47,115 nt of DNA from an uncultured Gammaproteobacteria bacterium (GTDB lineage: Bacteria > Pseudomonadota > Gammaproteobacteria > PS1 > Pseudothioglobaceae): positions 1-47,115 of the forward strand of contig CAJWTP010000006.1 in assembly GCA_913047325.1 (NCBI GenBank). The letters are read 5' to 3'. This document shows, in pieces, positions 1,327 to 41,984 of the stretch. The first letter of the stretch is position 1, and each line of letters begins with the position of its first letter. The notes below the pieces were generated by a model. It was not told the origin of the DNA, made no database searches, and was given only the letters and a program-made list of their open reading frames with translations. The translations under genes and the position numbers were made by a program.

Positions 1327-1327
1327 T

Positions 1328-2494: not shown

Positions 2495-2527
2495 CATTGA
2501 TGGATTAGTCGCCTTAGGGGTTAGCAA

Positions 2528-3547: not shown

Positions 3548-3586
3548 TCAATGCAAGATAGTGGAATTAAAACTAAAATTAATTAA

Positions 3587-4915
<1,329 letters not shown>

Positions 4916-4920
4916 ATTAT

Positions 4921-6689: not shown

Positions 6690-6704
6690 ATAATTTTTCC
6701 AGAA

Positions 6705-7475: not shown

Positions 7476-7514
7476 TCAGCTAATCAATACTCGTTCTATT
7501 TACCTTTTTGCGTC

Positions 7515-8057: not shown

Positions 8058-8068
8058 TGGTAATCTAT

Positions 8069-9993: not shown

Positions 9994-10142
9994 ATTGAAT
10001 ACCTTTGGCTAAATAAAAAAGTGATGAAAAATCATCTTACCTTTTAATAGGTCTAACTCCCAATTAGATTTTATATATTGAGTTGAGAATAACTAAATAA
10101 ATATATAAAAACAAACTGTATTGTACCTAACAAGAAGCCATT

Positions 10143-10169
10143 GCTGGTGGCAGGAGACTGGCCACCAGC
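10143..10169 (-). other. Stem-loop between dctP and dctQ
   Basis: 9-bp perfect arms GCTGGTGGC (10143-10151) / GCCACCAGC (10161-10169), 9-nt loop. Confidence 0.6.
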
Positions 10170-10187
10170 TAAAGCCCCATCAAACTT

Positions 10188-10226
10188 AAAAAAAAAGTTG
10201 CCAACAGTATTAACTGTTGGCAACTT
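10188..10226 (-). terminator. Rho-independent terminator-like hairpin downstream of dctP (minus strand)
   Basis: Perfect 14-bp inverted repeat AAGTTGCCAACAGT (10195-10208) / ACTGTTGGCAACTT (10213-10226). On the minus strand it is followed by a run of T (A-run 10188-10196 on plus). Confidence 0.85.
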
Positions 10227-10251
10227 AGTTTACAAATATAGCGATGAATCT

Positions 10252-11349
10252 TTACTTCAGAGTATCAGCAAACGCTTTACCTAGCTTAGCATTTGATGCT
10301 TGCGAACCAGCCCAGAAAGGCACCGCAATCTTAGCAAAATCTTTCTGAGATTGCCAAACTTCTGCAAAGAAGGCGTTGTCTGCAGCATTCTTTTCAAGCG
10401 TATCCTTCGCAGCGTTCATGTAAGCAGGGAAGTAATCAGCTGGAGTATCCATCAGCTGTACACCCCAATTCTCTGTCAAGTCTTTCAAAGCTAAACCGTT
10501 TTGGTAGATACGGTTAGACATTGAACGAATCAATGAAGCGTCTGCAGCAATATTTATTGCAGCTTGGTCAGTCTCAGAAAGGCTATCCCAAACGTCGCCA
10601 TTGATATACATGTCAGCATTCACAACAACTTGGTGAAGTCCTTGCAAGTAGTAGTACTTAAGAACCTTCTGGAAACCAAAGTCTCTGTCTGGTTGAGGGC
10701 AGCACCACTCTGCTGCATCAATAACACCTTTCTCAAGTGCAGGCAGAATATCTCCACCACCCATAGCTACTGAAGCGACACCAATGTCTTTGTAGGTTTG
10801 ACCTGGAATTCCAGGAGGTGTACGGAATCTTAGCTTACGGAAGTCATCCATATTATTGATTGGTTCTTTAAACCAACCAAGCGCTTCCGGTCCAACAGGT
10901 TGCAACATAAGGCCATGAATATTCATGCCCATTTCATCCCATAGTTGATCATAAAGCTCTTTACCACCAGCACTATGGAACCAAGAAACCCATGCGATAT
11001 TATCAATACCGACACCAGCACCTGCAACAGGAGAACCAAACAACATCGCTGCTGGATGCTTGCCAGACCAGTAATGCGTCCATGCAAATCCACCATCAAG
11101 CAAACCTGCGTCTACTGCATCTAAAACATCATTATTAGGCACAACAGAACCGCCAGGTACAATCTCCATCAACACTCTACCATCAGTCAACGTCGCAACA
11201 TTAGCTGCAAATTCTTTAAGCATCACAACTTCACTGGTGCTGCTTCCTATAACAGATTGTATTTTCATTTTTGTAACTGCCATTGCGCTAGAACTAAAGC
11301 TGAAAGCTAGTAGCGCAGTGAGCATCAAAACATATTTATTTTTTAACAT
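10252..11349 (-). CDS. dctP: TRAP transporter solute-binding protein (DctP family)
   Basis: 365 aa with signal peptide (MLKNKYVLMLTALLAFSFSSSAMA); DctP motifs (LRFRTPPGIPGQTYKDIGVASVAMGGGDILPALEKGVIDAAEWCCPQPDRDFGF). Confidence 0.88.
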   Translation of the reverse strand: MLKNKYVLMLTALLAFSFSSSAMAVTKMKIQSVIGSSTSEVVMLKEFAANVATLTDGRVLMEIVPGGSVVPNNDVLDAVDAGLLDGGFAWTHYWSGKHPAAMLFGSPVAGAGVGIDNIAWVSWFHSAGGKELYDQLWDEMGMNIHGLMLQPVGPEALGWFKEPINNMDDFRKLRFRTPPGIPGQTYKDIGVASVAMGGGDILPALEKGVIDAAEWCCPQPDRDFGFQKVLKYYYLQGLHQVVVNADMYINGDVWDSLSETDQAAINIAADASLIRSMSNRIYQNGLALKDLTENWGVQLMDTPADYFPAYMNAAKDTLEKNAADNAFFAEVWQSQKDFAKIAVPFWAGSQASNAKLGKAFADTLK

Positions 11350-25167: not shown

Positions 25168-26130
25168 ATGTTAAAGATAAATAAGCACGCGTCTAACATT
25201 GTTCTTGCAATATTTGTACTTTTTGCAACAGCTATGTTTGGAAGTTCAACAGCAATTGCATCAGGAGAGAAATTTGTCCTAATTAGTCATGCACCAGATT
25301 CTGATTCGTGGTGGAACACAATTAAGAATGCAATTGGAATAGCCGGTGATCAAATGGATGTTTCGGTAGATTATCGTAACCCTACTACTGGTGATTTAGC
25401 AGATATGGCACGTATTGTCCAGCAGGCTGCAGCAAGTGACCCTGATGGCATTATTGTAACAATTGCTGATTTTGATGTACTAAAAGGACCTATTACTGAC
25501 GCAATAGCAAAGGGCATTCCAGTGGTTACAATTAACTCTGGAACTCGTGCTCAATCTGAAGCACTTGGTGCATTGGCGCATATTGGCCAACCTGAGTATG
25601 ATGCTGGTTTTGGTGCAGGTAAAAGAGCTAAGGCCGCTGGTGTAAGTGAGTTCCTATGTGTCAATCACTTTTTTACAAATCCTGTGTCTGTTGATCGTTG
25701 CCAAGGCTATGCCGATGCACTTGGTGTAGATCTAGGCCATCAAATGATAGACTCTGGACAAGATCCAACGGAAATAAAAAATAAAGTTATGGCACACCTT
25801 AGGTCGCACCCTAGCACGGACGCCATTCTTACCTTGGGTCCAACCTCTGCTCATCCAACACTTTCAGCTTTGGATGACCTAGGCCGTTCGGGTGATATCT
25901 ATTTTGGTACTTTTGACCTTTCAGGTGAAATTGCAGCTGCCGTTAAATCTGGTGTGATTTCATTTGCCATTGATCAACAACCATACCTACAAGGGTATCT
26001 TCCGGTTGTTTTCTTGACTAACTTGTCTCGCTATGGTGTATGGCCATCTGGCGCCATTAACTCTGGCCCTGGATTTATCACTAAGAGCAACATAAGCTTA
26101 GTTGAAAAATACGCAGGTGTATATCGTTAG
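25168..26130 (+). CDS. Sugar ABC transporter substrate-binding protein (IbpA-like, probable inositol)
   Basis: 320 aa, signal peptide, periplasmic-binding LacI-type fold (FVLISHAPDSDSWWNTIKNAIGIAGDQMDVSVDYRNP, PVVTINSG). Inositol specificity from operon context only. Confidence 0.85.
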   Translation: MLKINKHASNIVLAIFVLFATAMFGSSTAIASGEKFVLISHAPDSDSWWNTIKNAIGIAGDQMDVSVDYRNPTTGDLADMARIVQQAAASDPDGIIVTIADFDVLKGPITDAIAKGIPVVTINSGTRAQSEALGALAHIGQPEYDAGFGAGKRAKAAGVSEFLCVNHFFTNPVSVDRCQGYADALGVDLGHQMIDSGQDPTEIKNKVMAHLRSHPSTDAILTLGPTSAHPTLSALDDLGRSGDIYFGTFDLSGEIAAAVKSGVISFAIDQQPYLQGYLPVVFLTNLSRYGVWPSGAINSGPGFITKSNISLVEKYAGVYR

Positions 26131-26216: not shown

Positions 26217-27332
26217 TTGAATCTCATGTCTATAAATAAAAAAAATACTTCGCCTATTCGCGCTTATATTAAAAACGCTATGATACGCCCAGACCTAGGG
26301 GCCATAGTTGGCGTTATATTGGTTTTTCTTTTCTTTTTTCTGGTAGCACATGATACTGGCATGTTTTCTCTAGAAGGATCCATGAATTGGGGCATAGTCT
26401 CTTCTCAGTTCATTATTATTGCTGTTGGTGCCTGCCTGTTGATGATTGCTGGTGAATTTGATCTTTCAGTTGGATCGATGATAGGTTTTGCTGGCATAGT
26501 GATCGCTGTCACTTCTATTGTTTGGGGTTGGCCTGTTTGGCTCAGTATTCTTACAGCCTTTGCTGTAGCGATGTCGATAGGCGCTTTAATTGGCTATATT
26601 ACAGTCAAAACAAATCTACCATCCTTTATTGTTAGTCTTGCTTTTTTATATATTTTGCGAGGTTTGACAATTTTTATTGCTATTGCCAGTACCAAAAAAA
26701 CCATTATTGGAGGTGTAACCGAAGTTGCTCAAAATGACTGGTTAGCGCCTATCTTCGGTGGAAAAATATTCTCAGGCTTATTCGAATGGCTTGCTGAACA
26801 GGGCTGGATTCAAACCTTTGTAGCTGGCACTAAAGCTGGCCAGCCAGTTGTATCTGGAATCCCTGCATTGATGGTTTGGGCACTGGGTCTAATTATTTTT
26901 GGTCATTTTGTGTTAACAAAAACTCGTTTTGGTAATTGGATTTACGCCTCCGGTGGCGATGCACAAGCTGCACGGCACATTGGCGTACCGGTTAACAAAG
27001 TTAAAATACTCATGTTTGTCTTTACTGCTTTTTGTGCAACCGTATTCGCCACCACTCAAGTTATTGAGTTTGGCTCGGCTTCAGCGGATAGAGGCATCCT
27101 TAAAGAATTTGAAGCAATTATTTCAGTGGTTATAGGTGGCGCCTTATTAACTGGAGGTTATGGATCAGTTATTGGTGCAGCTCTGGGCGCAATCATATTT
27201 GGAGTAGTGCAACAAGGTTTGTTTTTTATCGGCGTGGAGAGCTCATTATTTCGAGTTTTCCTAGGAGTGCTTTTACTATTAGCAGTGATACTCAATACAC
27301 ATGTTCGCAAATTAATCACAGGAGCGAAATGA
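26217..27332 (+). CDS. Sugar ABC transporter permease (IatP/RbsC-like)
   Basis: 371 aa multi-TM; ACLLMIAGEFDLSVGSMIGFAG; EAIISVVIGGALLTGGYGSVIGAALGAIIFGVVQQGLF. Confidence 0.87.
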   Translation: MNLMSINKKNTSPIRAYIKNAMIRPDLGAIVGVILVFLFFFLVAHDTGMFSLEGSMNWGIVSSQFIIIAVGACLLMIAGEFDLSVGSMIGFAGIVIAVTSIVWGWPVWLSILTAFAVAMSIGALIGYITVKTNLPSFIVSLAFLYILRGLTIFIAIASTKKTIIGGVTEVAQNDWLAPIFGGKIFSGLFEWLAEQGWIQTFVAGTKAGQPVVSGIPALMVWALGLIIFGHFVLTKTRFGNWIYASGGDAQAARHIGVPVNKVKILMFVFTAFCATVFATTQVIEFGSASADRGILKEFEAIISVVIGGALLTGGYGSVIGAALGAIIFGVVQQGLFFIGVESSLFRVFLGVLLLLAVILNTHVRKLITGAK

Positions 27333-28102
27333 TGAGTACTTCACCACTGATGGAACTTACAGACATTCATAAAAGTTTTGGTAATGTAAATGCCCTTAGA
27401 GGGGTTTCAATTTCTATTAATAGGGGAGAATGCCACTGCTTATTGGGCGATAACGGCGCAGGAAAATCAACATTGATTAAAATCATGTCTGGGGTACACC
27501 AGCCCACAGCTGGGCAAGTAAATATTAATGGAAAACCCACTGTAATGCAAGGCCCCCGTGAAGCAATAGATTCTGGAATTGCTACAGTTTATCAAGATTT
27601 GGCATTGATTCCATTAATGTCAGTGTCGCGTAATTTTTGGCTCGGTAGAGAACTGACAAAAAAAATAGGTCCAATCGCTGTAATGGACTTTGATAAATGT
27701 AACTCAATTTTGATGTCAGAAATGGAAAAAATAGGGATCCAATTACGAGACCCGAGTCAATCAATAGGAACTCTTTCAGGTGGTGAAAGGCAAACCGTTG
27801 CCATTGCTCGTGCCGTATTTTTTGGTGCTGAAATATTAATACTTGATGAGCCTACATCAGCTTTGGGTGTATACCAGACCGCTAATGTATTAAAAACTGT
27901 AGAAAAGGTTCGGGAAAAAGGTGTTGCAGTAGTATTTATATCGCATAACGTTTCACATGCCTTAGCTGTAGGGGACAAATTTACAGTTCTATCTCGAGGC
28001 GAAACTCTTGGCACTGCTCTTGCTGGAGAGATTAATTATGAAGAATTACAATTTATGATGTCTGGAAATAAGGAATTGTCAGCATTAAAAAATAGCAAAT
28101 AA
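27329..28102 (+). CDS. Sugar ABC transporter ATP-binding protein, single ABC domain (IatA/FrcA-like)
   Basis: 257 aa; GDNGAGKSTLIK, LSGGERQTVAIARA, ILDEPTSALG; overlaps permease stop (ATGA). Confidence 0.88.
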   Translation: MMSTSPLMELTDIHKSFGNVNALRGVSISINRGECHCLLGDNGAGKSTLIKIMSGVHQPTAGQVNINGKPTVMQGPREAIDSGIATVYQDLALIPLMSVSRNFWLGRELTKKIGPIAVMDFDKCNSILMSEMEKIGIQLRDPSQSIGTLSGGERQTVAIARAVFFGAEILILDEPTSALGVYQTANVLKTVEKVREKGVAVVFISHNVSHALAVGDKFTVLSRGETLGTALAGEINYEELQFMMSGNKELSALKNSK

Positions 28103-28134: not shown

Positions 28135-29115
28135 ATGAAAATATGTTTGATTGGTGCAGGTCGCATAGGTGCTGTCCATGCAATAGCAATAGCGGGTGAA
28201 GCAACAACTACGCTTCATTCGGTTGTTGACCTCCATCCAGAAGCGGCAGAGCAGCTTGCCAAAAAGTACAATGCTATCGCCTTAAACTTAGACCAGGCGT
28301 TCAATAATAACGAAATAGATGCCTTTATCATTGCCAGCAGTACTGCTACACATGCAGACCTAATAGAACGGTGTGCCCGAGCAGGTAAGCCTGTTTTTTG
28401 CGAAAAACCAATTGATTTAAGTCTCGATAGAGCTTTATCGTGTGCCAAAGTTGTTAAAGAAAGTGGCATTGTATGCATGATTGGTTTTAACAGGCGATTT
28501 GATCCACATATGGTCAGCTTAAAGAATAAAGTTGATGCAAACCTTATTGGCTCAGTTCAGTCTTTGATAATTAACTCTCATGACCCAGAACCGCCTTCTA
28601 TGGAATATATTGCAAGCTCTGGCGGGTTGTTTTATGACATGATGATCCACGATTTTGACATGGCCTGCTGGATACTTAAAGACACACCAAGCAATATATA
28701 TGTTGCTGCCACTGCTACAAATGATGATATTGCTAGCTATGGTGATGTGGATACTGCCAGTGTCATATTAACCATGAAGAATGGTGCGATTGCAACTATT
28801 ATTAATGGTCGTCAAGCGGCTTTTGGTTATGACCAGAGAATTGAAGTTTTTGGACAAAAAGGAATGTTGCAAGTACAAAATGCACTTGAAGATAATGTGG
28901 TGCTAAGCAATGCAAATGGAATTAACCAAGCTAAAGCAAAATATTTTTTCTTAGAAAGATATGAAAAGGCATATCACAACGAATTGGTACATTTTATGAA
29001 ATCAGTTCAAACAGGTGCTAAGCCTAGCGTAGACATTTCAGATGGCGTTCTGGCATTGAAAATTGCCGAAGCAGCTAAACAGTCTTTTGAAAGCGGAAAC
29101 CCAGTTAACTTATAA
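28135..29115 (+). CDS. iolG: Inositol 2-dehydrogenase (Gfo/Idh/MocA family)
   Basis: 326 aa; GAGRIGAVHA, VFCEKPIDLSLDRALSC, IGFNRRFDPHMVSLK, GGLFYDMMIHDFDMACWIL. Confidence 0.85.
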   Translation: MKICLIGAGRIGAVHAIAIAGEATTTLHSVVDLHPEAAEQLAKKYNAIALNLDQAFNNNEIDAFIIASSTATHADLIERCARAGKPVFCEKPIDLSLDRALSCAKVVKESGIVCMIGFNRRFDPHMVSLKNKVDANLIGSVQSLIINSHDPEPPSMEYIASSGGLFYDMMIHDFDMACWILKDTPSNIYVAATATNDDIASYGDVDTASVILTMKNGAIATIINGRQAAFGYDQRIEVFGQKGMLQVQNALEDNVVLSNANGINQAKAKYFFLERYEKAYHNELVHFMKSVQTGAKPSVDISDGVLALKIAEAAKQSFESGNPVNL

Positions 29116-29127
29116 ATATTAAATAGA

Positions 29128-29949
29128 ATGCTGCCACAGAATATTAACGATTTGAATAGTTTATTACAAGAGAGCTATCCCAAATTAAGCAAGAAAATGA
29201 AGTTGATAGCATTCTACATTATCGATCAACCTCAAAAACTCGCATTGAACACTCTTGCGGTGATTGCAGAAGATGTTGGGGTTTATCCTTCAACTCTGGT
29301 GCGCTTTGCTAAACATTTTGGTTTTAGTGGTTTTGCAGAACTGCAAGCGCTATTCAAGGTCAAAATTTCGCAATCTGCGATCAACTATCATCAGCGTATC
29401 ACTGATGTTCAAAAAGTAACTGGAGGTGATGTAAATATGAATAGTTCGAATATATTTCATGATGTTACTAGTCGTAATATTGCTGCCACAAAAATACTAT
29501 CTGAACAAACAGATGAAGAGTTAATAGAGGAATCCGTGCAGACATTGTGTGCGGCTAATGAAGTAATTTTATGTGGCTCGAATAGAGCTCAACCTATAGC
29601 AAGCTATTTTTATTATATGTTAAATAATCTAGGCATTCGATGCCGCATTACCAATAACGTAGCTGAAGAAGAAAGCCTATCACATTGGCTTGATGAGAAA
29701 ACTGTACTAATTGCAATCACTTATAACCCTTATTCTACTTGGACAACTGAAACCGTTAAGGAGGCAAAAAAATCTAATGCAACGGTTATTCTGCTGACCG
29801 ATACAAAGCTAAATCCTATTGCCCATCTTGCGGATTATTTATTTTGCATACATGAAGCAGAGATCCACACTTTTAGGTCCTTAGGGGCAACAATGTGCCT
29901 TGTTCAGGCTATATGTATATCCATCGGATACCATCAACAGGAAAATTAA
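29128..29949 (+). CDS. MurR/RpiR-family regulator (IolR-like)
   Basis: 273 aa; HTH_6 (NTLAVIAEDVGVYPSTLVRFAKHFGFSGFAELQALFKVKI) plus SIS domain. Sits inside the iol operon. Confidence 0.85.
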   Translation: MLPQNINDLNSLLQESYPKLSKKMKLIAFYIIDQPQKLALNTLAVIAEDVGVYPSTLVRFAKHFGFSGFAELQALFKVKISQSAINYHQRITDVQKVTGGDVNMNSSNIFHDVTSRNIAATKILSEQTDEELIEESVQTLCAANEVILCGSNRAQPIASYFYYMLNNLGIRCRITNNVAEEESLSHWLDEKTVLIAITYNPYSTWTTETVKEAKKSNATVILLTDTKLNPIAHLADYLFCIHEAEIHTFRSLGATMCLVQAICISIGYHQQEN

Positions 29950-29951
29950 AT

Positions 29952-30752
29952 ATGTCACTTTTATCTCGTCCAAAATTAAGTTCAGATGGTTGTTACCAAA
30001 ACATTACGCCAAAATCAGCCAATTGGGAATATGTCGGATTTCAAGCACATGAACTGGCGCCTCAACAAACTTTGAATTGGATTGATCCAGATAATGAATC
30101 ATGCTTGGTAATCTTATCTGGCAAGGCTGATATTAGAGTAGATAAGCAGACTTTTCATGGTCTTGGCGATAGGACGAGTGTATTTGAAGATAAAAAACCG
30201 CACGCAGTATATGCGCCCAATAACAGTCAAGTATCTATCAAAGCAATAACCAAACTCGAGCTGGCAATAGCAACTGCCCCCGGTTTTGGAAACTATCCTG
30301 CCAGATGCATTAAGCCTGAAGAAATGACCAGTGAAATTCGAGGAGAAGGCAGCAATACAAGATCAATTTGCAACATATTACCGGAACAAGACAAAGCCGA
30401 TAGTTTGCTGGTTGTCGAAGTCAAAACGCCGGCCGGAAATTGGTCTAGTTACCCACCCCATAAACATGACTCTGACAACATTCCAGTCGAATCCTATTTA
30501 GAAGAAACATATTATCATCGAATAAACCCACCACAAGGTTTTGTTTTTCAGCGCGTATATACCGACGATTTAGCTATTGATGAAACTATGGCTGTGGAAG
30601 ATAAATGCGTTGTTCTAGTGCCACGAGGTTATCACCCTGTTGGTGCTCCTTATGGATACGATTCTTACTATTTGAATGTAATGGCGGGACCAAAACGTCG
30701 ATGGATTTTTAAGAACCATCCTGATCACCAATGGATGTTGGATAAAACATGA
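29952..30752 (+). CDS. iolB: 5-deoxy-glucuronate isomerase
   Basis: Likely ATG 29952 (MSLLSRPKLSSDGCYQNITPKSANWEYVGFQ); GNWSSYPPHKHDSDNIPVESYLEETYYHRINPPQGFVFQRVYT; VLVPRGYHPVGAPYGYDSYYLNVMAGPKR. Confidence 0.9.
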   Translation: MSLLSRPKLSSDGCYQNITPKSANWEYVGFQAHELAPQQTLNWIDPDNESCLVILSGKADIRVDKQTFHGLGDRTSVFEDKKPHAVYAPNNSQVSIKAITKLELAIATAPGFGNYPARCIKPEEMTSEIRGEGSNTRSICNILPEQDKADSLLVVEVKTPAGNWSSYPPHKHDSDNIPVESYLEETYYHRINPPQGFVFQRVYTDDLAIDETMAVEDKCVVLVPRGYHPVGAPYGYDSYYLNVMAGPKRRWIFKNHPDHQWMLDKT

Positions 30753-32665
30753 AAAAACTGGATATTATTTGTCTAGGGCGTGCGGCAGTAGATTTTTACG
30801 GACAACAAATTGGGTCCACCCTAGAAAATATGGGTAGTTTCGCAAAATATCTTGGCGGCTCATCCGCAAATATTGCTTACGGTTGTTCCAAACTTGGACT
30901 TAAGTCCGCAATGCTCACTCGAGTTGGCGATGAACATATGGGTCGTTTTGTGCGCAATGAGTTGGCAAGCGTTGGGGTAGACGTTTCCCATGTCATTACA
31001 GATAAAGAGAGATTAACAGGTTTAGTCGTGCTAGGCATACAAGACAAAGAAACCTTCCCACTTATCTTTTACCGAAAAGACTGTGCAGATATGGCGGTTA
31101 ACATAAAAGACTTTACAGTTGAATTCATTGCCAGCAGTAAAGCGCTGTTAATTACGGGAACACATTTTTCTTCTACCAACACTTATAGCACCAGTATGAA
31201 AGCTATTGAGTATGCCAAGGTATCAAATACCAAAGTAATTATAGACATCGATTATCGACCTGTATTGTGGGGTTTAACTGGATTAGGTGATGGTGAATCT
31301 CGTTTTATTGCAAGTGATGATGTAAGTCAACATCTTCAAACTATACTGCCTTATTGCGATGTTATTGTCGGCACCGAAGAAGAGATTCATATTGCTGGTG
31401 GTAGTGAAGACACGATTACTGCTTTAAGGCAAATTCGAAAACTAAGCGACACCATTATTGTATTAAAACTTGGCCCATTGGGGTGTACAGTAATTACCAG
31501 TGATATTCCAGACAGTTCAGCTGGCTTTAAGGCTATAAAAGGCAATCAAGTCGAGATACTAAACGTGCTAGGCGCCGGTGACGCCTTCATGTCTGGATTT
31601 TTACGTGGCTACTTAAGAGACGAGAGTCTTGAAAAAAGCGCCACTTATGCAAATGCCTCAGGCGCACTAGTAGTTTCTCGACATGGTTGTGCCCCAGCAA
31701 TTCCAAGCGAAGAAGAGCTGTTTTACTATTTGGATAATGCACATAATATCTCAGACCCAAGTAAAGATAGTGCCCTTAATCATCTCCACAGAGTTAGCTT
31801 TAGAGGCGACATGAAATCAGAAATTTTTGGTTTCGCGTTTGATCATCGCAAGCAACTCTATGATTTAGCGATTGAGTGCGGGGAAGATCCAAATCAAATA
31901 GTAAAGCTAAAAAAACTATTTTTGAGTTCGATAGAGAGCACCATTAAGCAAATCAATATTTCAGAGAGAAATGTTGGCGTACTAATCGATGACACTTATG
32001 GTGAAGAAGCACTACACTCTATCGCTGAAAAACCATGGTGGATTGGAAGACCAGTAGAGCTTCCCAGCTCCCGCCCTCTAGAATTCGAAGGCGGAGGATC
32101 AATTGGATCGAAACTACAGTCTTGGCCATTAACACATGTTGTAAAGTGCTTGTTGTTTTATCATCCAGACGACCCTATTGAATTGAGGCTCAAGCAAGAA
32201 CGGCAACTGAAGGAGCTGTATTCTGCTTGCGTTCAAAGCGGACATCAATTGTTATTAGAAGTAATCCCACCTGCAGAATCTGAAGAGGATGCCTCTACAA
32301 TACCGCAAATACTAAAGAGGTTTTATCATCTCGGCATTAAACCAGATTGGTGGAAATTACCAGCACTTCAAGACAAGTCTTGGCAACTAACAAGCGAGGT
32401 CATATTGGGCCATGACCCACACTGCCAAGGTGTATTATTATTAGGACTGTCTGCATCCATGGAGGCTGTGAAAGAATCTTTTGCTGGCGCAACAAAATAC
32501 GATATTTGTAAAGGTTTTACAGTTGGCAGAACAATTTTTTATGAACCAGCGAAAGAGTGGATGCAACACAAGATAAGCGACCAAGAGTTGGTTGACTCTG
32601 TGGCCGGTAATTATATCGAATTAATTAAAGCTTGGAAAAAATACAGAGAGGAAATGAGCAAATGA
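30749..32665 (+). CDS. iolC: 5-dehydro-2-deoxygluconokinase fused to DUF2090 (aldolase-like) domain
   Basis: 638 aa; N-terminal PfkB kinase (LGRAAVDFYGQQIGSTLENMGSFAKYLGGSSANIAYGCSKLGL, NVLGAGDAFMSGFLRGYL), C-terminal DUF2090-like (FAFDHRKQLYDLAIECGEDP...WWKLPAL). Confidence 0.9.
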   Translation: MKKLDIICLGRAAVDFYGQQIGSTLENMGSFAKYLGGSSANIAYGCSKLGLKSAMLTRVGDEHMGRFVRNELASVGVDVSHVITDKERLTGLVVLGIQDKETFPLIFYRKDCADMAVNIKDFTVEFIASSKALLITGTHFSSTNTYSTSMKAIEYAKVSNTKVIIDIDYRPVLWGLTGLGDGESRFIASDDVSQHLQTILPYCDVIVGTEEEIHIAGGSEDTITALRQIRKLSDTIIVLKLGPLGCTVITSDIPDSSAGFKAIKGNQVEILNVLGAGDAFMSGFLRGYLRDESLEKSATYANASGALVVSRHGCAPAIPSEEELFYYLDNAHNISDPSKDSALNHLHRVSFRGDMKSEIFGFAFDHRKQLYDLAIECGEDPNQIVKLKKLFLSSIESTIKQINISERNVGVLIDDTYGEEALHSIAEKPWWIGRPVELPSSRPLEFEGGGSIGSKLQSWPLTHVVKCLLFYHPDDPIELRLKQERQLKELYSACVQSGHQLLLEVIPPAESEEDASTIPQILKRFYHLGIKPDWWKLPALQDKSWQLTSEVILGHDPHCQGVLLLGLSASMEAVKESFAGATKYDICKGFTVGRTIFYEPAKEWMQHKISDQELVDSVAGNYIELIKAWKKYREEMSK

Positions 32666-34518
32666 AAACAATTAGACTCACAATGGCGCAGGCCGTAGTT
32701 AAATATTTGTCGGCACAACATATCAAGATTGATGATGAAGTTCAGCCCATATTTGCTGGAGTTTTTGCTATCTTTGGACATGGCAATGTGGCAGGTATGG
32801 GGCAGGCATTGGAAGAGCAGCAAAAGCATTTGCCTACGCTCCGTGCACACAGCGAGCAAGGCATGGTTCATGCTGCTATAGCTTATGCCAAGGCCAACAA
32901 ACGCCAAAGAATGATGGCTTGCACCAGCTCAATTGGACCTGGTGCGACCAATATGATCACTGCCGCAGCGCTGGCCCATGTTAACAGACTTCCAGTTTTA
33001 TTATTGCCGGGTGATTTTTTTGCAAGCCGAACCCCAGACCCCGTACTCCAGCAATTAGAAGATTTCTCAAACCCCACGATTAGTGTCAACGATTGTTTCA
33101 AGACAGTGAGTCGATATTTTGATCGCATTATGAGGCCCGAACAAATCATTAATAGTTTGCCTGTTGCGATGCAAACTCTATTAGACCCAGAAAACTGTGG
33201 TCCAGTAACCTTGTCTCTACCCCAGGATGTTCAAGCAGAAGCGTTTGACTATCCCGAAGAGTTTTTTATTAAGCGTACCCATTCCATCCGTCAAATAGCA
33301 CTTGATAATGCGGAATTAACTCGTGCAGTTGAAGCGTTGTTACAATCTAAAAAACCACTGATCGTAGCCGGTGGTGGTGTGCATTATGCAAAAGCGTGTG
33401 AGGCGTTGCAAAAATTTGCGGGAAAATACCAAATTCCAGTAGCAGAAACCCAAGCAGGGAAAGGTTCGTTGGCATGGGACCACCCCTGCTATGTTGGCGC
33501 TATTGGAGTAACCGGCTCCAATGCAGCCAATAATCTGGCACAACAAGCAGATGTTGTATTGGCGATCGGTACAAGGTTACAGGATTTTACTACTGGCTCT
33601 AGAACACTATTTGCTAATACAACATTATTACAGTTAAATGTTTCTCGTTTTGACGCCATAAAACACAGCGCACTATCGTTGTTGGGTGATGCTAAGCTAG
33701 GAATAATGCAATTGGATAAACACCTCTCAACTTGGAAAGCACCACGGTCTTGGTTCGATTTGGGACAAAAAGAAATTGCCAAGTGGAATAGCTACTATGA
33801 CCAAATTACCTCCATTAGCGATTTATCAAACACAGAAAATATTTTGCCCACAGATGCTCAGGTGTTGGGTGAAGTGAAACGTCATGGCACAGTCAGTGAT
33901 ATTGTTCTTTGTGCTGCAGGAAGTTTGCCAGGTGAATTGCATAAATTGTGGCGAACAGAGCAGGTTGGTGGTTACCATGCTGAATACGGTTTTTCTTGTA
34001 TGGGATACGAAATAGCTGGAGGATTAGGTGTGAAAATGGCAGAGCCAGAGCGAGAAGTAATTGTACTTGTTGGAGATGGTTCATACTTGATGCTTAACTC
34101 AGAATTGGCAACTAGCGTCATGTTAGGCCACAAAATAATCGTTATTGTTTTGGATAATCGAGGATTCTCTTGTATTAATCGTCTTCAAAATGCAACCGGT
34201 AATCGTTCGTTTAATAATTTATTGAAAGATTGCCAAAGTGTCGATGATGGTCATCCAGAAATTAATTTTGCGATGCACGCAAAGGCACTAGGAGCTAATT
34301 CTGAACAAGTTAACAGTATACAAGAATTAGAATCGGCACTTGTTCGTGCGCAATCCTCATCAAAATCTTATGTTATAAGCTTAGTGACAGACTCTCACAA
34401 AATAAGTCCAGAAGGTGGCTGCTGGTGGGAAGTTGCAGTACCTGAAGTGTCATCAAATATAAAAGGCAAAGAGGTTCTCAAATCTTATAAAGAGTCTAAA
34501 ACAAAACAACCTTACTAA
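32662..34518 (+). CDS. iolD: 3D-(3,5/4)-trihydroxycyclohexane-1,2-dione hydrolase (ThDP-dependent)
   Basis: Likely ATG 32662 (MKTIRLTMAQAVVKYLSAQHIKID); AHSEQGMVHAAIAYAKANKRQRMMACTSSIGPGATNM; ThDP motif VLVGDGSYLMLNSELATSVMLGHKIIVIVLDN. Confidence 0.92.
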   Translation: MKTIRLTMAQAVVKYLSAQHIKIDDEVQPIFAGVFAIFGHGNVAGMGQALEEQQKHLPTLRAHSEQGMVHAAIAYAKANKRQRMMACTSSIGPGATNMITAAALAHVNRLPVLLLPGDFFASRTPDPVLQQLEDFSNPTISVNDCFKTVSRYFDRIMRPEQIINSLPVAMQTLLDPENCGPVTLSLPQDVQAEAFDYPEEFFIKRTHSIRQIALDNAELTRAVEALLQSKKPLIVAGGGVHYAKACEALQKFAGKYQIPVAETQAGKGSLAWDHPCYVGAIGVTGSNAANNLAQQADVVLAIGTRLQDFTTGSRTLFANTTLLQLNVSRFDAIKHSALSLLGDAKLGIMQLDKHLSTWKAPRSWFDLGQKEIAKWNSYYDQITSISDLSNTENILPTDAQVLGEVKRHGTVSDIVLCAAGSLPGELHKLWRTEQVGGYHAEYGFSCMGYEIAGGLGVKMAEPEREVIVLVGDGSYLMLNSELATSVMLGHKIIVIVLDNRGFSCINRLQNATGNRSFNNLLKDCQSVDDGHPEINFAMHAKALGANSEQVNSIQELESALVRAQSSSKSYVISLVTDSHKISPEGGCWWEVAVPEVSSNIKGKEVLKSYKESKTKQPY

Positions 34519-34520
34519 TT

Positions 34521-35705
34521 ATGAAAAAAGAAGCATCAAAAGCAAGCATTAATCAAGTTTTTTTTAGTGAATCAGATATTAATCATGATGATTTAAGGCA
34601 AATCTGTTCTCAAAAAACGTTCAAAGAAGAATACCCCTTGGCTGATTCTGTTGAAAATAATGTCGTGATTTATAACGCAATAAACATAACCCCGCTCACT
34701 GATAACTCAAACCAAGAAAAGAGATTAAAAACTGAGTTGAATCACATTTTAGAGAAAGGTCCGGGAGTTTTCGTTATTCGTAATCTATTTGAGGATTGCG
34801 AAGTAATAGATCAGAGCAACGATATTTTTGAAAAGATTATTAAGAAAGAAGATAACAGCAAAAATGACCATTTCGCCTCTGGTACCAATGCAAGGATATG
34901 GAATAGCTTACAAAAAGTTGCCCTCGAAAATCCTGAAGTATTTATCAATTATTATTCTAACAACGTCCTGAGAGTTGTTGCAGAGTCCTGGTGTGGCCCA
35001 AACTTTCAAATGACGGCACAAGTCAATGTGGTCAAGCCTGGTGGTGAAATGCAAAAGCCACATCGCGATTACCATTTAGGATTTCAAGAAAACAAAGAAA
35101 TACAAGAGTACCCCATCTCGAGTCAACGTATGTCTCAGAACTTAACTTTGCAGGGTGCGGTTGCGCACAGCGAAATGCCACTTGAAAGTGGTCCAACCAT
35201 GCTACTGCCCCACTCGCATAAGTATGAATTGGGGTATTTGGCATGGCGGAATAATGTATTTCAAAATTTTTTTTGTGAGAACGCTGTCCAGCTTCCATTA
35301 AAGAAAGGTGATGGCGTATTTTTTAATCCTGCGTTATTTCATGCGGCTGGCACCAACAGCACTAAAAAAATTGACCGCATTGCTAATCTGTTACAAATCT
35401 CGTCGGTCTTCGGCAAGACTATGGAACATATTGATTATATTAAAATTATCAAGAATATTTACCCAGCTTTACTAGAGCACCAAAACAACAACACACTTTC
35501 GAAAAAATCTATTACGAATGTCTGCATCTGTGCAACCGACGGTTACGCCTTCCCAACAAACCTAGATTACGATACAAATGCTTATTCTGGTATTAAGGGG
35601 TTCAGTATGTTTGAAATCACACTGCAAGCACTCGAACAGTCTCTTGATTTGGATAATTTCACCTCAAAACTTTATGAACACCAAAAGATTAAGTTTGCCA
35701 GTTAA
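34521..35705 (+). CDS. Phytanoyl-CoA dioxygenase (PhyH)-family 2-oxoglutarate/Fe(II) oxygenase
   Basis: 394 aa; HxD as HRD (KPHRDYHLGFQ), QGAVAHSEMPLESGPTMLLPHSHKYELGYLAW, distal His/Arg FFNPALFHAAGTNSTKKIDRIANLLQIS. 2 bp after the iolD stop. Confidence 0.82.
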   Translation: MKKEASKASINQVFFSESDINHDDLRQICSQKTFKEEYPLADSVENNVVIYNAINITPLTDNSNQEKRLKTELNHILEKGPGVFVIRNLFEDCEVIDQSNDIFEKIIKKEDNSKNDHFASGTNARIWNSLQKVALENPEVFINYYSNNVLRVVAESWCGPNFQMTAQVNVVKPGGEMQKPHRDYHLGFQENKEIQEYPISSQRMSQNLTLQGAVAHSEMPLESGPTMLLPHSHKYELGYLAWRNNVFQNFFCENAVQLPLKKGDGVFFNPALFHAAGTNSTKKIDRIANLLQISSVFGKTMEHIDYIKIIKNIYPALLEHQNNNTLSKKSITNVCICATDGYAFPTNLDYDTNAYSGIKGFSMFEITLQALEQSLDLDNFTSKLYEHQKIKFAS

Positions 35706-35771: not shown

Positions 35772-36677
35772 ATGAGTATAAAAATTGGTGTTAGTCCGAT
35801 TTCATGGACTAACGATGACATGCCAGAATTGGGTGGTGACACGACAATGGAACATTGTTTGCAAGAAGGCAAGCTTGCTGGCTATAGTGGCTTTGAATTA
35901 GGTGGCAAATGGCCTCGAGAAGCATCAGTTTTAGAGCCCTTATTTAATAAATATGACATGGACATAGTCTCAAGCTGGTTTAGTGGAGATCTACTAATAG
36001 GAAGTCTCGAAGATGAAATAAAAAGAATAACGCCTCATATGCAACTCCTGAAAGATCTAGGGACAAAAGTGATTGTCTATTGTGAAATGGATGCTTGTGT
36101 CCATGGAGAAATAACTGTGCCTCTTTCAAGACGCCCAGTTATTGCTGAAGATCAATGGCAAGAGTGGACTGCAAAGCTTAACCAGCTGTCAGAATATACT
36201 TTATCGCATGGAATGCAACTGGCCTACCATCACCATATGGGAACAGTGGTTCAAATCGAAGAGGAAGTGGACAAACTAATGGCAATGACAAATAGTGATC
36301 TCGGGTTGGTATTAGATACTGGTCACTTAATATATGCCGGCTCAGACCCACTAAGGGTCTATGAAAAGTACAGTGACAGAGTGCTCCATATTCATTGTAA
36401 AGATGTAAGAGGGGCGTTATTAGATGATTCACTCAATACTGATTCAAGTTTTTTAAATTCTGTACTAAATGGTGTATTTACTGTGCCAGGTGATGGTGAT
36501 TTCAATTTTCCTGATCTATTTAAAATGGTGAGTGATAATGAGTATAGTGGCTGGATAGTTGTTGAGGCCGAACAAGATCCAGCTAAAGCGCATCCATTAA
36601 CGTACGTGACAATGGGTTATAACAATATTCAAAGTTACTGTGATAAATTTGGAATTCAAATAGAGGATAGAGAATGA
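35772..36677 (+). CDS. iolE: Myo-inosose-2 dehydratase
   Basis: Likely ATG 35772; IKIGVSPISWTNDDMPELGGDTTMEHCLQEGKLAGYSGFELGGKWP; LVLDTGHLIYAGSDPLRVYEKYSDRVLHIHCKDVR; GVFTVPGDGDFNFPDLF. Confidence 0.92.
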   Translation: MSIKIGVSPISWTNDDMPELGGDTTMEHCLQEGKLAGYSGFELGGKWPREASVLEPLFNKYDMDIVSSWFSGDLLIGSLEDEIKRITPHMQLLKDLGTKVIVYCEMDACVHGEITVPLSRRPVIAEDQWQEWTAKLNQLSEYTLSHGMQLAYHHHMGTVVQIEEEVDKLMAMTNSDLGLVLDTGHLIYAGSDPLRVYEKYSDRVLHIHCKDVRGALLDDSLNTDSSFLNSVLNGVFTVPGDGDFNFPDLFKMVSDNEYSGWIVVEAEQDPAKAHPLTYVTMGYNNIQSYCDKFGIQIEDRE

Positions 36678-37798
36678 AAACAATTGGTATAGGTGTTATT
36701 GGTACGGCTTTTATGGGTAAGGCTCATTCTATTGCCTATGCTGCTGCAGGAAGTGTTTTTGGAGATGGTTTACGACCAACCCTAGAGTTGATTTGTGACT
36801 ACAATTCTGATAGAGCTGAAGTTATGCGAAAGGAAATGGGTTTTGCTCGGTGCACTAGCACTTGGATGGATGTAGTGAATGATCCAAAAGTTCAACTAAT
36901 TTCTGTTTGTGTTCCAAATTCGTTACATAAAGAGATTTCAGTAGCTGCACTCAAGGCTGGTAAGCATGTCTGGTGTGAAAAACCTATGTCCACCAATTTA
37001 TCTGACTCTGAAGCTATGTTTGCAGCAGCCAAAGCCAGTAGTGCTCAAACTATACTTGGCTATAACTATACTCAAAATCCAGCGGTTCAAAGTGCTAGAA
37101 AACTTATTGATGAGGACGTTATAGGTCGAGTAATCGGCTTTTATGGAAGCTACGATGTCGACAATGAGGCTGATCCAGATAGACCCCATTCTTGGCGAAT
37201 GAGTCGTGAAGCTTCAGGTACTGGCTCTAATGCCGATGTGATGTGCCATTTAGTTAGCATGGCTCATTATATGACAGGTAGCGAAATAACTCGATTAGTT
37301 GGGGATTATGATACAGTTCATAAAGAGCGCCCTGACCCAAAAAATCAGGGGCAAACATTAGTAGTTGACAATGACGATGTTTGTACAGCAATGGCTCATT
37401 TTGAGAGTGGAATTAAGGGAACCTTGCGTGTAAGTCGAGTAGCTTGGGGAAGAAAATGCGGATTGCGTTGGGAAATTCATGGCTCACAAGGCATGATATG
37501 TCACGATCAGGAACGACTAAATGAAATCAAGTTATATACAAGGAGTGATGATCCTAGACAGGAGGGTTTTAAAACCATTTTGAGCGGTCCGGCTCAACCC
37601 CCATATAATGCCTTTTTGCCAAATGCGGGACATAGTCTTGGCTATATCGACGTCAAGGTATGCGAACTCAAACATATACTGGATGCAATTGAAACAGGCC
37701 AGCCAGTCTGGCCCAACTTTGCTGATGGCTTAAAAATTGAAAGAGTGATGGACGCCATAGATCGTTCTGCACTTTCTGGTCAGTGGCTTGATGTCTAA
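36674..37798 (+). CDS. Gfo/Idh/MocA-family oxidoreductase, second inositol-type dehydrogenase
   Basis: 374 aa; GVIGTAFMGKAHSIAYAAAG, HVWCEKPMSTNLSDSEAMF, LGYNYTQNPAVQSARKLI; ATGA overlap with iolE. Confidence 0.85.
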   Translation: MKTIGIGVIGTAFMGKAHSIAYAAAGSVFGDGLRPTLELICDYNSDRAEVMRKEMGFARCTSTWMDVVNDPKVQLISVCVPNSLHKEISVAALKAGKHVWCEKPMSTNLSDSEAMFAAAKASSAQTILGYNYTQNPAVQSARKLIDEDVIGRVIGFYGSYDVDNEADPDRPHSWRMSREASGTGSNADVMCHLVSMAHYMTGSEITRLVGDYDTVHKERPDPKNQGQTLVVDNDDVCTAMAHFESGIKGTLRVSRVAWGRKCGLRWEIHGSQGMICHDQERLNEIKLYTRSDDPRQEGFKTILSGPAQPPYNAFLPNAGHSLGYIDVKVCELKHILDAIETGQPVWPNFADGLKIERVMDAIDRSALSGQWLDV

Positions 37799-38789
37799 AA
37801 TACAAATACAACATTTGCATTACCTAGATAATCGATTATGGCACGGCTTGGTAGTAGGAAGGGCTGGCCTCGACCTTTATCCACAGCCTTCAGGAAGTAA
37901 AACTCGCGATGCAGGGTTATTTGCTAGTGACGTAGGCGGCTCTGGCGCTAATATTGCTGTAGCTATGAGGCATGCAGGGGGTGAAGTAGGCCTTATCTCG
38001 GCTTTATCCGACGATTCCGTCGGTGAATATGTGCGGCAGCGACTTACAAATGAAGGCATTGATCTACAATTATTGCAAACCACTTCAGGTGACGAACGCA
38101 CCAGTCTAGCAATTGCCGAAGAGCGCTCGGAGGACTGCGAAGTAGTAATATATCGTAATAATCCTGCGGATCTGCGAATTACCTGTGATGAAGCTATACG
38201 ACTGGCCATTAGCCAAAGCGACAATCTGATCGTAACTGGCACCAGTCTAATTGAGTCTGATTCACGAAAACAAACCCTTGAAATGATGGATCATGCAAAA
38301 CAAAATAATTGCAAGGTCTGGCTAGATTTAGATTACAGACATTGGAACTGGCCCGATATTAAAACTACCCGCTCAGCCTATCAAAAAGCTGCGGAACAAG
38401 CGGATGTACTAGTTGGCAATGAAGATGAATTCAATATTCTGCAAGAAGACATTAATGCACAGGCTAAGCAATGTGCCGCCCATGACCAAGTGATAATCCT
38501 CAAGCGTGGCGTAAAGGGTTGCAGTCTTTTTTCTGGTGGGGCTCGACTTGATACCGGAATTTATGCCCTGCCAGTCTGCAAGCCTTATGGTTCTGGCGAT
38601 GCTTTTCTTGGTAACGTGATAATGAATTATATGTCTTCTGGTGACTGGCAACAAGCCATTGAGGCTGGCAGTGCCGCAGCAGCTTTAGTAGTATCCCAGC
38701 GAGGCTGTGTTAGTGCTATGCCTAACTTAGAGGAAATTGAATTATTGCAAAAACGAATGATGATAAAACCTACAACAAAGTGGAGTTAA
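37791..38789 (+). CDS. PfkB-family sugar kinase, stand-alone second IolC-type kinase
   Basis: ATG 37791 (MSKIQIQHLHYLDNRLWHGLVVGRAGLDLYPQPSGSK); DVGGSGANIAVAMRHAGGEVGLISALSDD; CKPYGSGDAFLGNVIMNY. Confidence 0.85.
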   Translation: MSKIQIQHLHYLDNRLWHGLVVGRAGLDLYPQPSGSKTRDAGLFASDVGGSGANIAVAMRHAGGEVGLISALSDDSVGEYVRQRLTNEGIDLQLLQTTSGDERTSLAIAEERSEDCEVVIYRNNPADLRITCDEAIRLAISQSDNLIVTGTSLIESDSRKQTLEMMDHAKQNNCKVWLDLDYRHWNWPDIKTTRSAYQKAAEQADVLVGNEDEFNILQEDINAQAKQCAAHDQVIILKRGVKGCSLFSGGARLDTGIYALPVCKPYGSGDAFLGNVIMNYMSSGDWQQAIEAGSAAAALVVSQRGCVSAMPNLEEIELLQKRMMIKPTTKWS

Positions 38790-38791
38790 AT

Positions 38792-39631
38792 ATGCATATT
38801 CCTCAACATGATAACAATAATCGGGCAATTGTAGATCGTAACCATGACTTGGTTCCCCTATGCTATTTCAATATCATTAAGCTAAAGGCTGGTGAGTCAT
38901 ATAGCTATCAACTAGCTGATTACGAAACTTGTATAGTGCCGGCTACTGGAAGTATTGATGTACAAGTACAAAATCAAACTTTCAAACAGGTTGGAAAGCG
39001 TCAGCATATCTGGGAAAGAGACCCAGAAGGTGTCTACGTGCCGGTGAACTGTGAAGCTACATTGGACTGCATCAGTGGCGACGTAGAAGTCTTCATTTCG
39101 GGAGCCAAGCATAATCAAACCCACAGCGCCTTTGTTATAAGGGAAGACGATATTGATACAGTTCAGTATGGCTCTGATGACACTAAAACTCATCGTAAAA
39201 TTAAACATATTCTGGGTAAGAATCCAGCTGGCGAAGTAGGCAAACTGTTGGTTAGTGAACTATTTACCGTAGGTGCAGGTGGTTGGTCCGGGTTTCCGCC
39301 TCATAAACATGAAATAGACAGGCTGCCTGAAGAGACTCGCCACAATGAAGTTTATAACTTTCGCTTTAACCCGCCTCATGGTTTTGGCGCCCAGTTTTTA
39401 ACTCCAGATGGACAGGACTATGGTCCGGTCTATCATATACGCAATGAATCGACATTTGTCTTTGATAAAGGTTATCACCCTTGTGTAGCGGCTCCTGGGT
39501 ATGAAATGTATTATTTCACTATTCTGGCTGGAGAAACCCAGCGACCGCTGCATATGAATTTTCACAAAGATCATGCCTATCAGCTTGATACCATCCCTGG
39601 CATGCAAGATATGCTTGGCAAATTTAAATAA
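38792..39631 (+). CDS. Second IolB-like 5-deoxy-glucuronate isomerase family protein
   Basis: ATG 38792 (MHIPQHDNNNRAIVDRNHDLVPL); GGWSGFPPHKHEIDRLPEETRHNEVYNFRFNPPHGFGAQFL; GYHPCVAAPGYEMYYFTILAGE. Clearly diverged from 29952..30752. Confidence 0.85.
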   Translation: MHIPQHDNNNRAIVDRNHDLVPLCYFNIIKLKAGESYSYQLADYETCIVPATGSIDVQVQNQTFKQVGKRQHIWERDPEGVYVPVNCEATLDCISGDVEVFISGAKHNQTHSAFVIREDDIDTVQYGSDDTKTHRKIKHILGKNPAGEVGKLLVSELFTVGAGGWSGFPPHKHEIDRLPEETRHNEVYNFRFNPPHGFGAQFLTPDGQDYGPVYHIRNESTFVFDKGYHPCVAAPGYEMYYFTILAGETQRPLHMNFHKDHAYQLDTIPGMQDMLGKFK

Positions 39632-39636
39632 AAAAT

Positions 39637-40467
39637 ATGATTTCTAATCTTAAAGATATTCTTATGCCAGCCCAAGATGGGGGTTATGCTGTCGCCTGCT
39701 TCAATGTATTTGGCTACGAAGATGCACGTGCGGTTGTTAATGCTGCAGAAGCACGCAATGCTTCGGTAATTCTCTCTATTAATATCGACATGCGCCAATT
39801 TATGCCAATGGAGCAAATTATCGGCATGTTAAGACCTATGGCCGAAAAGGCACGAGTTCCTGTGTGTCTGCATCTTGACCATACCTATGAAATTGATACA
39901 GTTAAAGAAGCCGTTGATACTGGATTTACTTCTGTAATGTTTGATGGCTCTCAGTTACCTATCTCTGAAAATATCACCGCCATCCGCGACATTGTTTCCT
40001 ATGCACACCCTAAAGACACATCGGTAGAAGCTGAAGTGGGCTCAGTGCCCTATGCAACTGGTCGTGACAATATCCGTTCTGCCTTAACTGAAGTAATTGA
40101 AGCTGTAGCTATGGAAGAACAAGGACAACCCGATGCACTAGCAATATCCATAGGTAATGTGCATCGTTTGGAAGACCGATCTGTAGCAATTGACTTAGAC
40201 CGTTTTACCGAGTTAGAAAAAGCTTTAAGCCTGCCATTGGTAATTCATGGCGCTAGTGGCCTTGAAAACAAAGAAATCCAAATAATGGCATCACGTCAAG
40301 TAGCTAAATTCAATGTTGGTACCATTTTGCGAAAAACGTTTGGCAACTCATTGCGCACCACACTTAAATCTGACCTTGACTTGTTTGATCGTATCACTAT
40401 AATGCAGCAAGTAATTCCAGATATGCGCACTACAGCTAGTAAAATAATCCGTTTACTAGGGCAGTGA
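39637..40467 (+). CDS. Class II aldolase (FbaA/KbaY/IolJ type)
   Basis: 276 aa; MISNLKDILMPAQDGGYAVACFNVFGYEDARAVVNAAEARNASVIL; VCLHLDHTYEIDTVKEAVDTGFTSVMFDGS; LVIHGASGL. Confidence 0.88.
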   Translation: MISNLKDILMPAQDGGYAVACFNVFGYEDARAVVNAAEARNASVILSINIDMRQFMPMEQIIGMLRPMAEKARVPVCLHLDHTYEIDTVKEAVDTGFTSVMFDGSQLPISENITAIRDIVSYAHPKDTSVEAEVGSVPYATGRDNIRSALTEVIEAVAMEEQGQPDALAISIGNVHRLEDRSVAIDLDRFTELEKALSLPLVIHGASGLENKEIQIMASRQVAKFNVGTILRKTFGNSLRTTLKSDLDLFDRITIMQQVIPDMRTTASKIIRLLGQ

Positions 40468-40490
40468 TGAAACACAACCAAGGAAATAAA

Positions 40491-41984
40491 ATGACCACAT
40501 TGCAACACATCATCGACGGAAAAAACGTCACCGGTACTTCAGAAACTTTGTTTGACATATATGACCCTTCAACCGGGAAGACAACAAAGAAAATAAAAGG
40601 TGCGAGTGCTAATGACGTACAAAAAGCTGTTAAGATTGCGAACGAAAAGTTTACCTCCTGGTCGCAAGTAACACCGTCAAAACGTGCGCAAATCATGTTT
40701 AATTATCGTGACCTAATCATTAAAAATACCGATGAACTAGCTAAACTAATCTCACAAGAGCACGGCAAGACCTTCGCTGACGCTAAGGGTGAGGTGGGTA
40801 GAGGTTTAGAAATAGTTGAGTACTGTACTGCAATCAACAATCACCTTAAATCGGACTTTACTGCAGACGTTTCAACAGGCATTGATAGCCATAATGTTCG
40901 CCAGCCACTTGGCGTTTGCGCTGGTATTGTGCCTTTTAACTTTCCGGCAATGGTCCCGATGTGGATGTATCCAGTAGCAATATCATGTGGCAACACTTTT
41001 GTTTTAAAACTATCAGAAAAAGTACCTTCATGTGGATTAAGATTGACCGAATTAATGCAAGAAGCTGGTCTTCCAGCGGGTGTTCTAAATACTATTGTTG
41101 GTGACAAAGAGGCAGTCGATGAAATACTTACAAACCCACTAGTTCGTGCGGTCAGTTTTGTCGGCTCTACACCTGTAGGTGAGTACATCTATCAAGAAGG
41201 TTCACGCCACAATAAACGCGTACAGGCTCTTTGTGGTGCAAAAAATCATATGATCGTGATGCCGGATGCGGATTTGGAACAAAGCACAGATGCCATTATT
41301 GGCGCAGCCTATGGCTCAGCTGGCGAAAGATGTATGGCAATCTCGGTAGTTGTAGCTGTTGGTGATGAGACTGCCGATCAACTCATTGAATCCCTAGCGC
41401 CAAAAATTAAATCTTTAAATATTGGCGCTTATGATGAACCTAATGTAGAAATGGGTCCGGTAATCTCTAAGGAGAGTCAAGAAAAAATACTATCCTATAT
41501 CGAGTCTGGCATTGATGACGGGGCAGAACTGAAAGTTGATGGCAGATCCGCAACCGAAAAAGACGGCTTCTTCATTGGAGGCTGCTTGTTCGACAAAGTA
41601 ACCCCGAATATGTCAATTTACACCGATGAAATTTTTGGCCCTGTTCTGTCCATTGTAAGAGTGTCAACTTACGATGAAGCATTGGCGCTTGTCAATGATC
41701 ACGAATATGGCAACGGTACAGCTATATTCACTCGCGACGGTGACACTGCACGCCACTTCACTTCAAACGTTAAGGTCGGTATGGTCGGAGTTAATATCCC
41801 AATCCCTGTCCCGGTTGCGATGCACAGCTTTGGTGGCTGGAAGCGTTCACTTTTTGGTGGTTCCTCAATTCATGGCATGGAGGGTGTGCGCTTTTACACC
41901 CAGCTCAAAACCGTCACCTCAAGATGGCCTTCAGGCATCCGGAAAGGCGCCCAGTTCCATTTTAAAAGTGGCAAAGACGTTTAG
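40491..41984 (+). CDS. iolA: Methylmalonate/malonate-semialdehyde dehydrogenase (acylating)
   Basis: ALDH superfamily; likely ATG 40491 (RBS aaggaa); QPLGVCAGIVPFNFPAMVPMWMYPVAISCGNTFVLKLSEKVPS; GSAGERCMAISVVV. Confidence 0.9.
   Translation: MTTLQHIIDGKNVTGTSETLFDIYDPSTGKTTKKIKGASANDVQKAVKIANEKFTSWSQVTPSKRAQIMFNYRDLIIKNTDELAKLISQEHGKTFADAKGEVGRGLEIVEYCTAINNHLKSDFTADVSTGIDSHNVRQPLGVCAGIVPFNFPAMVPMWMYPVAISCGNTFVLKLSEKVPSCGLRLTELMQEAGLPAGVLNTIVGDKEAVDEILTNPLVRAVSFVGSTPVGEYIYQEGSRHNKRVQALCGAKNHMIVMPDADLEQSTDAIIGAAYGSAGERCMAISVVVAVGDETADQLIESLAPKIKSLNIGAYDEPNVEMGPVISKESQEKILSYIESGIDDGAELKVDGRSATEKDGFFIGGCLFDKVTPNMSIYTDEIFGPVLSIVRVSTYDEALALVNDHEYGNGTAIFTRDGDTARHFTSNVKVGMVGVNIPIPVPVAMHSFGGWKRSLFGGSSIHGMEGVRFYTQLKTVTSRWPSGIRKGAQFHFKSGKDV

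Follow-up and report, generated by a model that had tools for sequence, protein, structure and literature searches.

A PhyH-subfamily oxygenase in the inositol operon of a gammaproteobacterium and its probable role in cyclitol catabolism

The operon and its oxygenase

The window, that is, the whole stretch of 47 115 nucleotides that was analyzed, belongs to a 1.66-Mb gammaproteobacterial draft genome whose host would be a marine bacterium of the SUP05/Arctic96BD-19 type. It contains an inositol (iol) operon in the order SBP (substrate-binding protein)-permease-ATPase-iolG1-RpiR-iolB1-iolC1(DUF2090)-iolD-PhyH-iolE-iolG2-iolC2-iolB2-iolJ, followed in the window by iolA. The genes are listed below with the match or annotation behind each assignment.

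25168-26130 (+), SBP nearest the rhizopine (inosamine) SBP family (NF052284, 270 bits, cut-off 420; PDB 4ru1)
26226-27332 (+), sugar ABC permease (sequence annotation)
27332-28102 (+), single-domain sugar ABC ATPase (sequence annotation)
28135-29115 (+), iolG1, inositol 2-dehydrogenase (TIGR04380, 399 bits)
29128-29949 (+), RpiR/SIS-type operon regulator (sequence inspection; no NCBIfam model matches)
29952-30752 (+), iolB1, canonical 5-deoxy-glucuronate isomerase (TIGR04378, 342 bits)
30749-32665 (+), iolC1 fused to a DUF2090 aldolase (NF047869, 840 bits)
32662-34518 (+), iolD, trihydroxycyclohexanedione hydrolase (TIGR04377, 934 bits)
34521-35705 (+), PhyH-subfamily 2-oxoglutarate (2OG)/Fe(II) oxygenase, 394 aa, predicted ligands H181, D183, and H274 (Fe) and R286 (2OG)
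35772-36677 (+), iolE, myo-inosose-2 dehydratase (TIGR04379, 394 bits)
36674-37798 (+), iolG2, scyllo-inositol-dehydrogenase-like Gfo/Idh protein (46% identity to 5YA8; K103/D188/H192 retained, E165 replaced by V162)
37791-38789 (+), iolC2, second deoxy-keto-gluconokinase-like PfkB kinase, without DUF2090 (TIGR04382, 271 bits, cut-off 300)
38780-39631 (+), iolB2, divergent second IolB (TIGR04378, 168 bits, cut-off 205; co-occurrence)
39637-40467 (+), iolJ-like class II aldolase (PF01116)
40467-41984 (+), iolA, CoA-acylating methylmalonate/malonate semialdehyde dehydrogenase (TIGR01722, 660 bits)

The reading frame given for the oxygenase in an earlier note (34521-35705, forward strand, 394 aa) is exact in its coordinates, and so is the spacing: iolD ends at 34518, which leaves a gap of 2 nt upstream, and the ATG of iolE lies at 35772, which leaves 66 nt downstream. 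The protein matches the Pfam model PhyH (PF05721) with 98.4 bits (cut-off 22), and no NCBIfam model matches it. Another 11 genomes of the genus carry orthologs at 63% to 78% identity (one copy is internally deleted), and these together with the curated Pfam match identify it as a real gene and not a chance ORF. The HRD and distal His...Arg motifs that had been proposed correspond to H181-R182-D183 (the HxD motif), H274 (the distal histidine), and R286 (the 2OG-binding arginine). H181, D183, H274, and R286 are invariant in 21 aligned relatives and retained in 97 to 99 of 99 relatives, and a polar signature, DHFxxGxNxRxWN...QxxHRDYHxGF, is invariant. The protein is thus a predicted 2OG/Fe(II) enzyme by its PhyH domain and its metal and co-substrate residues and, judged by sequence, a member of an unnamed but distinct and well-defined PhyH subfamily. 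AlphaFold2, run on a three-sequence input, gave a model of low confidence (pLDDT = 37.6, pTM = 0.32). The GC content of the gene is 0.376, compared with 0.37 to 0.45 in its neighbors, and this comparison gave no clear signal of a recent horizontal acquisition in the window genome.

The duplicated module downstream of the oxygenase, also recognized earlier, is real. The paralogs share 31% (IolB1/IolB2), 27% (IolC1/IolC2), and 20% (IolG1/IolG2) identity, so the genes of the second module are old paralogs rather than recent copies. The iolE and iolD genes are single and common to both branches, with B and C duplicated. The two known aldolase solutions occur together in this operon, the IolC-DUF2090 fusion (30749-32665) and the IolJ-type class II aldolase (39637-40467).

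Elsewhere in the window, a cluster at 1050-11349 resembles those for organosulfonate (dihydroxypropanesulfonate/sulfolactate) degradation. It comprises a small SuyA-like ORF (~1050-1320), a SuyB/altronate-dehydratase-like protein (1328-2494), an L-sulfolactate-dehydrogenase-like protein (NF040650, 228 bits, below the cut-off of 500), a HisD-like dehydrogenase (TIGR00069, 414 bits) that may be a sulfopropanediol dehydrogenase of the HpsN type, SDR and Zn-ADH genes, a GntR regulator, and a TRAP transporter.

Conservation and genomic neighborhoods

Within the genus, PhyH is all-or-none with iolD and the second module iolG2-iolC2-iolB2-iolJ. Among 29 genomes, iolD is present in 12 (once as a contig-end fragment), PhyH in 12 (including one internally deleted copy, in G022), and iolG2 in 11; all mismatches fall at contig ends or in G022, and no full iol operon without PhyH was found in this set. 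The operon order is identical in every member with adequate sequence. In G022 (L026, 4900-5750) both iolD and PhyH have internal deletions while iolE-G2-C2-B2-J is intact, which may reflect decay or an assembly artifact.

By profile search, relatives at ~37% to 47% identity were recovered from alphaproteobacteria and from further gammaproteobacterial families. Plasmids yielded others, from Betaproteobacteria, Gammaproteobacteria, and the actinomycete Tsukamurella; no relative was found in the viral contigs searched. Neighbor genes were labeled by translated BLAST at moderate identity. On this basis, PhyH has iol genes around it in families f52, f61, f223, and f219 (in f52 and f61 at five of five loci) as well as in Thioclava, Paracoccus, and Tsukamurella. 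In a Pseudomonadota-wide sample, iol genes, a divergent LacI-type regulator, or both lie within ~10 kb of PhyH at 14 of 18 loci. In alphaproteobacteria, PhyH is neighbored by an importer 56% to 69% identical to that of the window; at six loci with 57% to 69% identity the two share a cluster, and on an Agrobacterium plasmid an importer of this type lies 6 kb from PhyH. The position of the gene varies between operons (iolD-PhyH-iolE, iolE-PhyH-iolB, iolJ-PhyH, or after iolD), which favors repeated functional recruitment over one frozen gene order; the iol-linked enzymes do not form a single clade, and the group of the window enzyme sits on a long branch and is unusual in composition. Placement beside iol genes, on which the earlier note had staked its reading, therefore proved to be conserved in several families and in two phyla.

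Many relatives have no cyclitol gene beside them, or just an SDR and a LacI regulator. The main counter-example is family f145, in which PhyH is present in 40 of 48 genomes and most loci are without a nearby cyclitol gene. At eight loci, a recurring three-gene unit combines PhyH with an SDR of the PRK06198 subfamily and a divergent LacI regulator that has a Peripla_BP_4 domain. The idea that this regulator shares the ligand of the SBP through close homology was dropped, as BLASTP gave no meaningful match despite the Peripla_BP_4 domain.

The tie between PhyH and the second module, suggested earlier from the window, extends beyond the all-or-none pattern of the genus to the alphaproteobacterial family f223, sampled as 150 genomes from 149 genera (PhyH in 29, iolB2 in 49, iolD in 74). 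All 29 PhyH carriers have iolB2, compared with 49 of 150 genomes overall (P = 3.5e-18, kinship ignored). Among iolD carriers, PhyH is found in 28 of 48 with iolB2 and 0 of 26 without it (P = 8.5e-8, kinship ignored). The association goes beyond mere linkage, since the two genes often lie on different contigs. The nesting is looser outside this sample: most rhizobial PhyH carriers are without iolB2, as is one PhyH-bearing f223 genome (G772) of a wider sample.

This nesting bears on where in the pathway the enzyme acts. Its substrate could arise further along, as an intermediate or a side product; the enzyme might, for instance, repair or reroute a stereochemically wrong deoxy-uronate from the shared IolE and IolD for use by IolB2, IolC2, and IolJ, which would suit both the strict f223 pattern and the sharing of iolE and iolD while B and C are duplicated. 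We regard such a role as improbable, because some PhyH genes accompany LacI and SDR genes at a great distance from any iolD, and because there are lineages, rhizobia among them, that have PhyH but not iolB2. It is very improbable that the gene is a passenger, or a phytanoyl-CoA-type α-oxidation enzyme, that came to lie in the operon by chance. The Pfam name and the rank of the gene among the less conserved of the operon (63% to 78% identity within the genus) would agree with this, but the recurrent linkage to iol genes across many families and two phyla, the genome-level nesting with iolB2, and the invariant polar signature argue against it. From its genomic context, we conclude that this oxygenase of a distinct PhyH subfamily very likely acts in cyclitol catabolism.

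Candidate reactions of the oxygenase

Since the same family adjoins inositol genes in many unrelated bacteria, the oxygenase probably prepares a modified, perhaps methylated, inositol. Our preferred, still tentative, reading is that it acts early on an imported modified inositol by oxidative O-demethylation and that the iol enzymes complete the breakdown. The substrate would enter through the putatively rhizopine-type ABC importer; Fe(II) on H181/D183/H274 and 2OG on R286 would activate O2, the ferryl species would take a hydrogen from the O-methyl group, and the hemiacetal would collapse to formaldehyde and a free inositol (or inosose). The remaining steps would fall to IolG2/IolG1, IolE, IolD, IolB1/B2, IolC1/C2, and the DUF2090 or IolJ aldolase, with the second G2-C2-B2-J branch presumably serving the released stereoisomer.

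The one direct hint of formaldehyde release comes from five f145 loci at which FrmA-FghA, the glutathione-linked gene pair for formaldehyde oxidation, lies divergent to PhyH, an iolG2-type gene accompanying the latter at some of them. At one of them (L041, 6059-10609) the S-(hydroxymethyl)glutathione dehydrogenase and S-formylglutathione hydrolase both score above curated cut-offs. All five loci belong to one sublineage, and the adjacency therefore counts as a single event. FrmA, the glutathione-dependent formaldehyde dehydrogenase, was not found in the window genome or in the complete genome G007. It is present in three of 29 genus members, one of which carries PhyH, and FrmA as a genus-wide partner was rejected because most PhyH carriers of the genus are without it. 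At another locus (L145, 13263-17890) a formyltetrahydrofolate deformylase (PurU) lies inside a sugar ABC transporter cluster ~3 kb from PhyH, possibly another one-carbon link.

The commonest PhyH reaction is C-H hydroxylation, and the enzyme could instead hydroxylate a deoxy-cyclitol of the quercitol or cyclohexanetetrol type to an inositol usable by the iol pathway. The frequent pairing of PhyH with a dehydrogenase (an SDR of the PRK06198 family or a Gfo/Idh protein) would fit such a step, and the cyclitol context supports it equally with O-demethylation; the FrmA-FghA neighborhood would however be left unexplained, and we consider this alternative unlikely.

The partner proteins have a bearing on the substrate. 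The sole NCBIfam match of the SBP is the rhizopine SBP model NF052284, and the SBP is kept in the sister operons, as might be expected if PhyH oxidatively deaminated an inosamine of the rhizopine type, a 2OG-driven hydroxylation at the C-N carbon giving an inosose and ammonia. A possible precedent is KanJ, the 2OG oxygenase responsible for deaminating an aminocyclitol antibiotic in kanamycin biosynthesis. The score of 270 bits is nonetheless below the curated cut-off of 420, and with scyllo-inosose entering the usual pathway there would be no explanation for the strict tie to iolB2, which makes deamination a decidedly unlikely choice. IolG2 is 46% identical to 5YA8, a crystallized scyllo-inositol dehydrogenase, and retains the catalytic and contact residues K103, D188, H192, Y132, Y160, R175, and H320, whose roles in sugar binding and catalysis are taken from PMC5969746. 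The single change in this contact set is E165 to V162, genus-wide, and the lost polar contact, which might suit a methylated or deoxygenated position, counts in favor of O-demethylation.

Returning to O-demethylation, a broader proposal, which we find rather doubtful, is that the PhyH subfamily serves bacteria generally to unlock methylated inositols (pinitol and ononitol, for example), as an oxidative O-demethylase or by a comparable reaction. It would be coupled to a second, stereochemically distinct IolG2-C2-B2-J branch, non-homologous to MocDEF, and distributed over Actinomycetota and Alpha-, Beta-, and Gammaproteobacteria, with rhizobia and marine bacterioplankton among its hosts. Plants contain methylated inositols as abundant solutes: of the compounds measured in root exudate of Mimosa, pinitol had the highest concentration (PMC5789663), and legume nodules accumulate pinitol and ononitol (PMC8730688). 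Our literature searches for a PhyH enzyme with inositol or pinitol found no paper connecting PhyH to inositol catabolism, and a large survey of inositol clusters (PMC9430895) mentions neither phytanoyl nor PhyH. If the link is true, it would provide a named gene family for an as yet unassigned entry step of modified-inositol use, a marker predicting which bacteria use such compounds, and, for many proteins whose sole annotation is phytanoyl-CoA dioxygenase, a likely role.

Comparison with known systems

To our knowledge, the textbook inositol pathway has no oxygenase step. The canonical myo-inositol operons of Bacillus subtilis and rhizobia share IolG, E, D, B, C, J, and A with the window, which in contrast has an oxygenase between iolD and iolE that is conserved in the genus, second G, C, and B paralogs, and both DUF2090 and IolJ-type aldolases.

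Human phytanoyl-CoA 2-hydroxylase (PhyH, 2A1X) has in common with the oxygenase the PhyH domain, by sequence, and the HxD...H...R motif. However, the match is just 27 bits over residues 81 to 284, and the subfamily, ~390 aa in length, has its own conserved ends. Close kinship with a PhyH of known unrelated function, which the earlier note had considered as an argument against its reading, was not seen, the nearest solved structures all being remote. The context is cyclitol catabolism and not fatty-acid oxidation: no α-oxidation setting was found among the PhyH neighbors, which are cyclitol genes, LacI regulators with Peripla_BP_4, and SDRs. A function as phytanoyl-CoA hydroxylase is not supported.

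The Pl-scyllo-inositol dehydrogenase/L-glucose dehydrogenase of Paracoccus laeviglucosivorans (5YA8) shares with IolG2 the catalytic K-D-H residues and four of five further substrate contacts. IolG2 differs in the genus-wide valine at contact Glu165 and in its genomic company of PhyH and iolC2-B2-J.

Rhizopine catabolism (mocCABRDEF) resembles the window operon in having Gfo/Idh dehydrogenases and an oxygenase step and in depending on the inositol pathway, and perhaps also in its SBP, for which the window protein matches the rhizopine model below the cut-off. In the rhizobial model as outlined in PMC5789663 (citing Bahar 1998), the oxygenase is the ferredoxin-oxygenase complex MocDEF, whereas the window operon has a PhyH enzyme and, by annotation, no MocDEF among its genes; its regulator is of the RpiR type (LacI type in relatives) in place of MocR. 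By analogy, the window operon may work as rhizopine catabolism does, with an oxygenase and the inositol pathway acting together.
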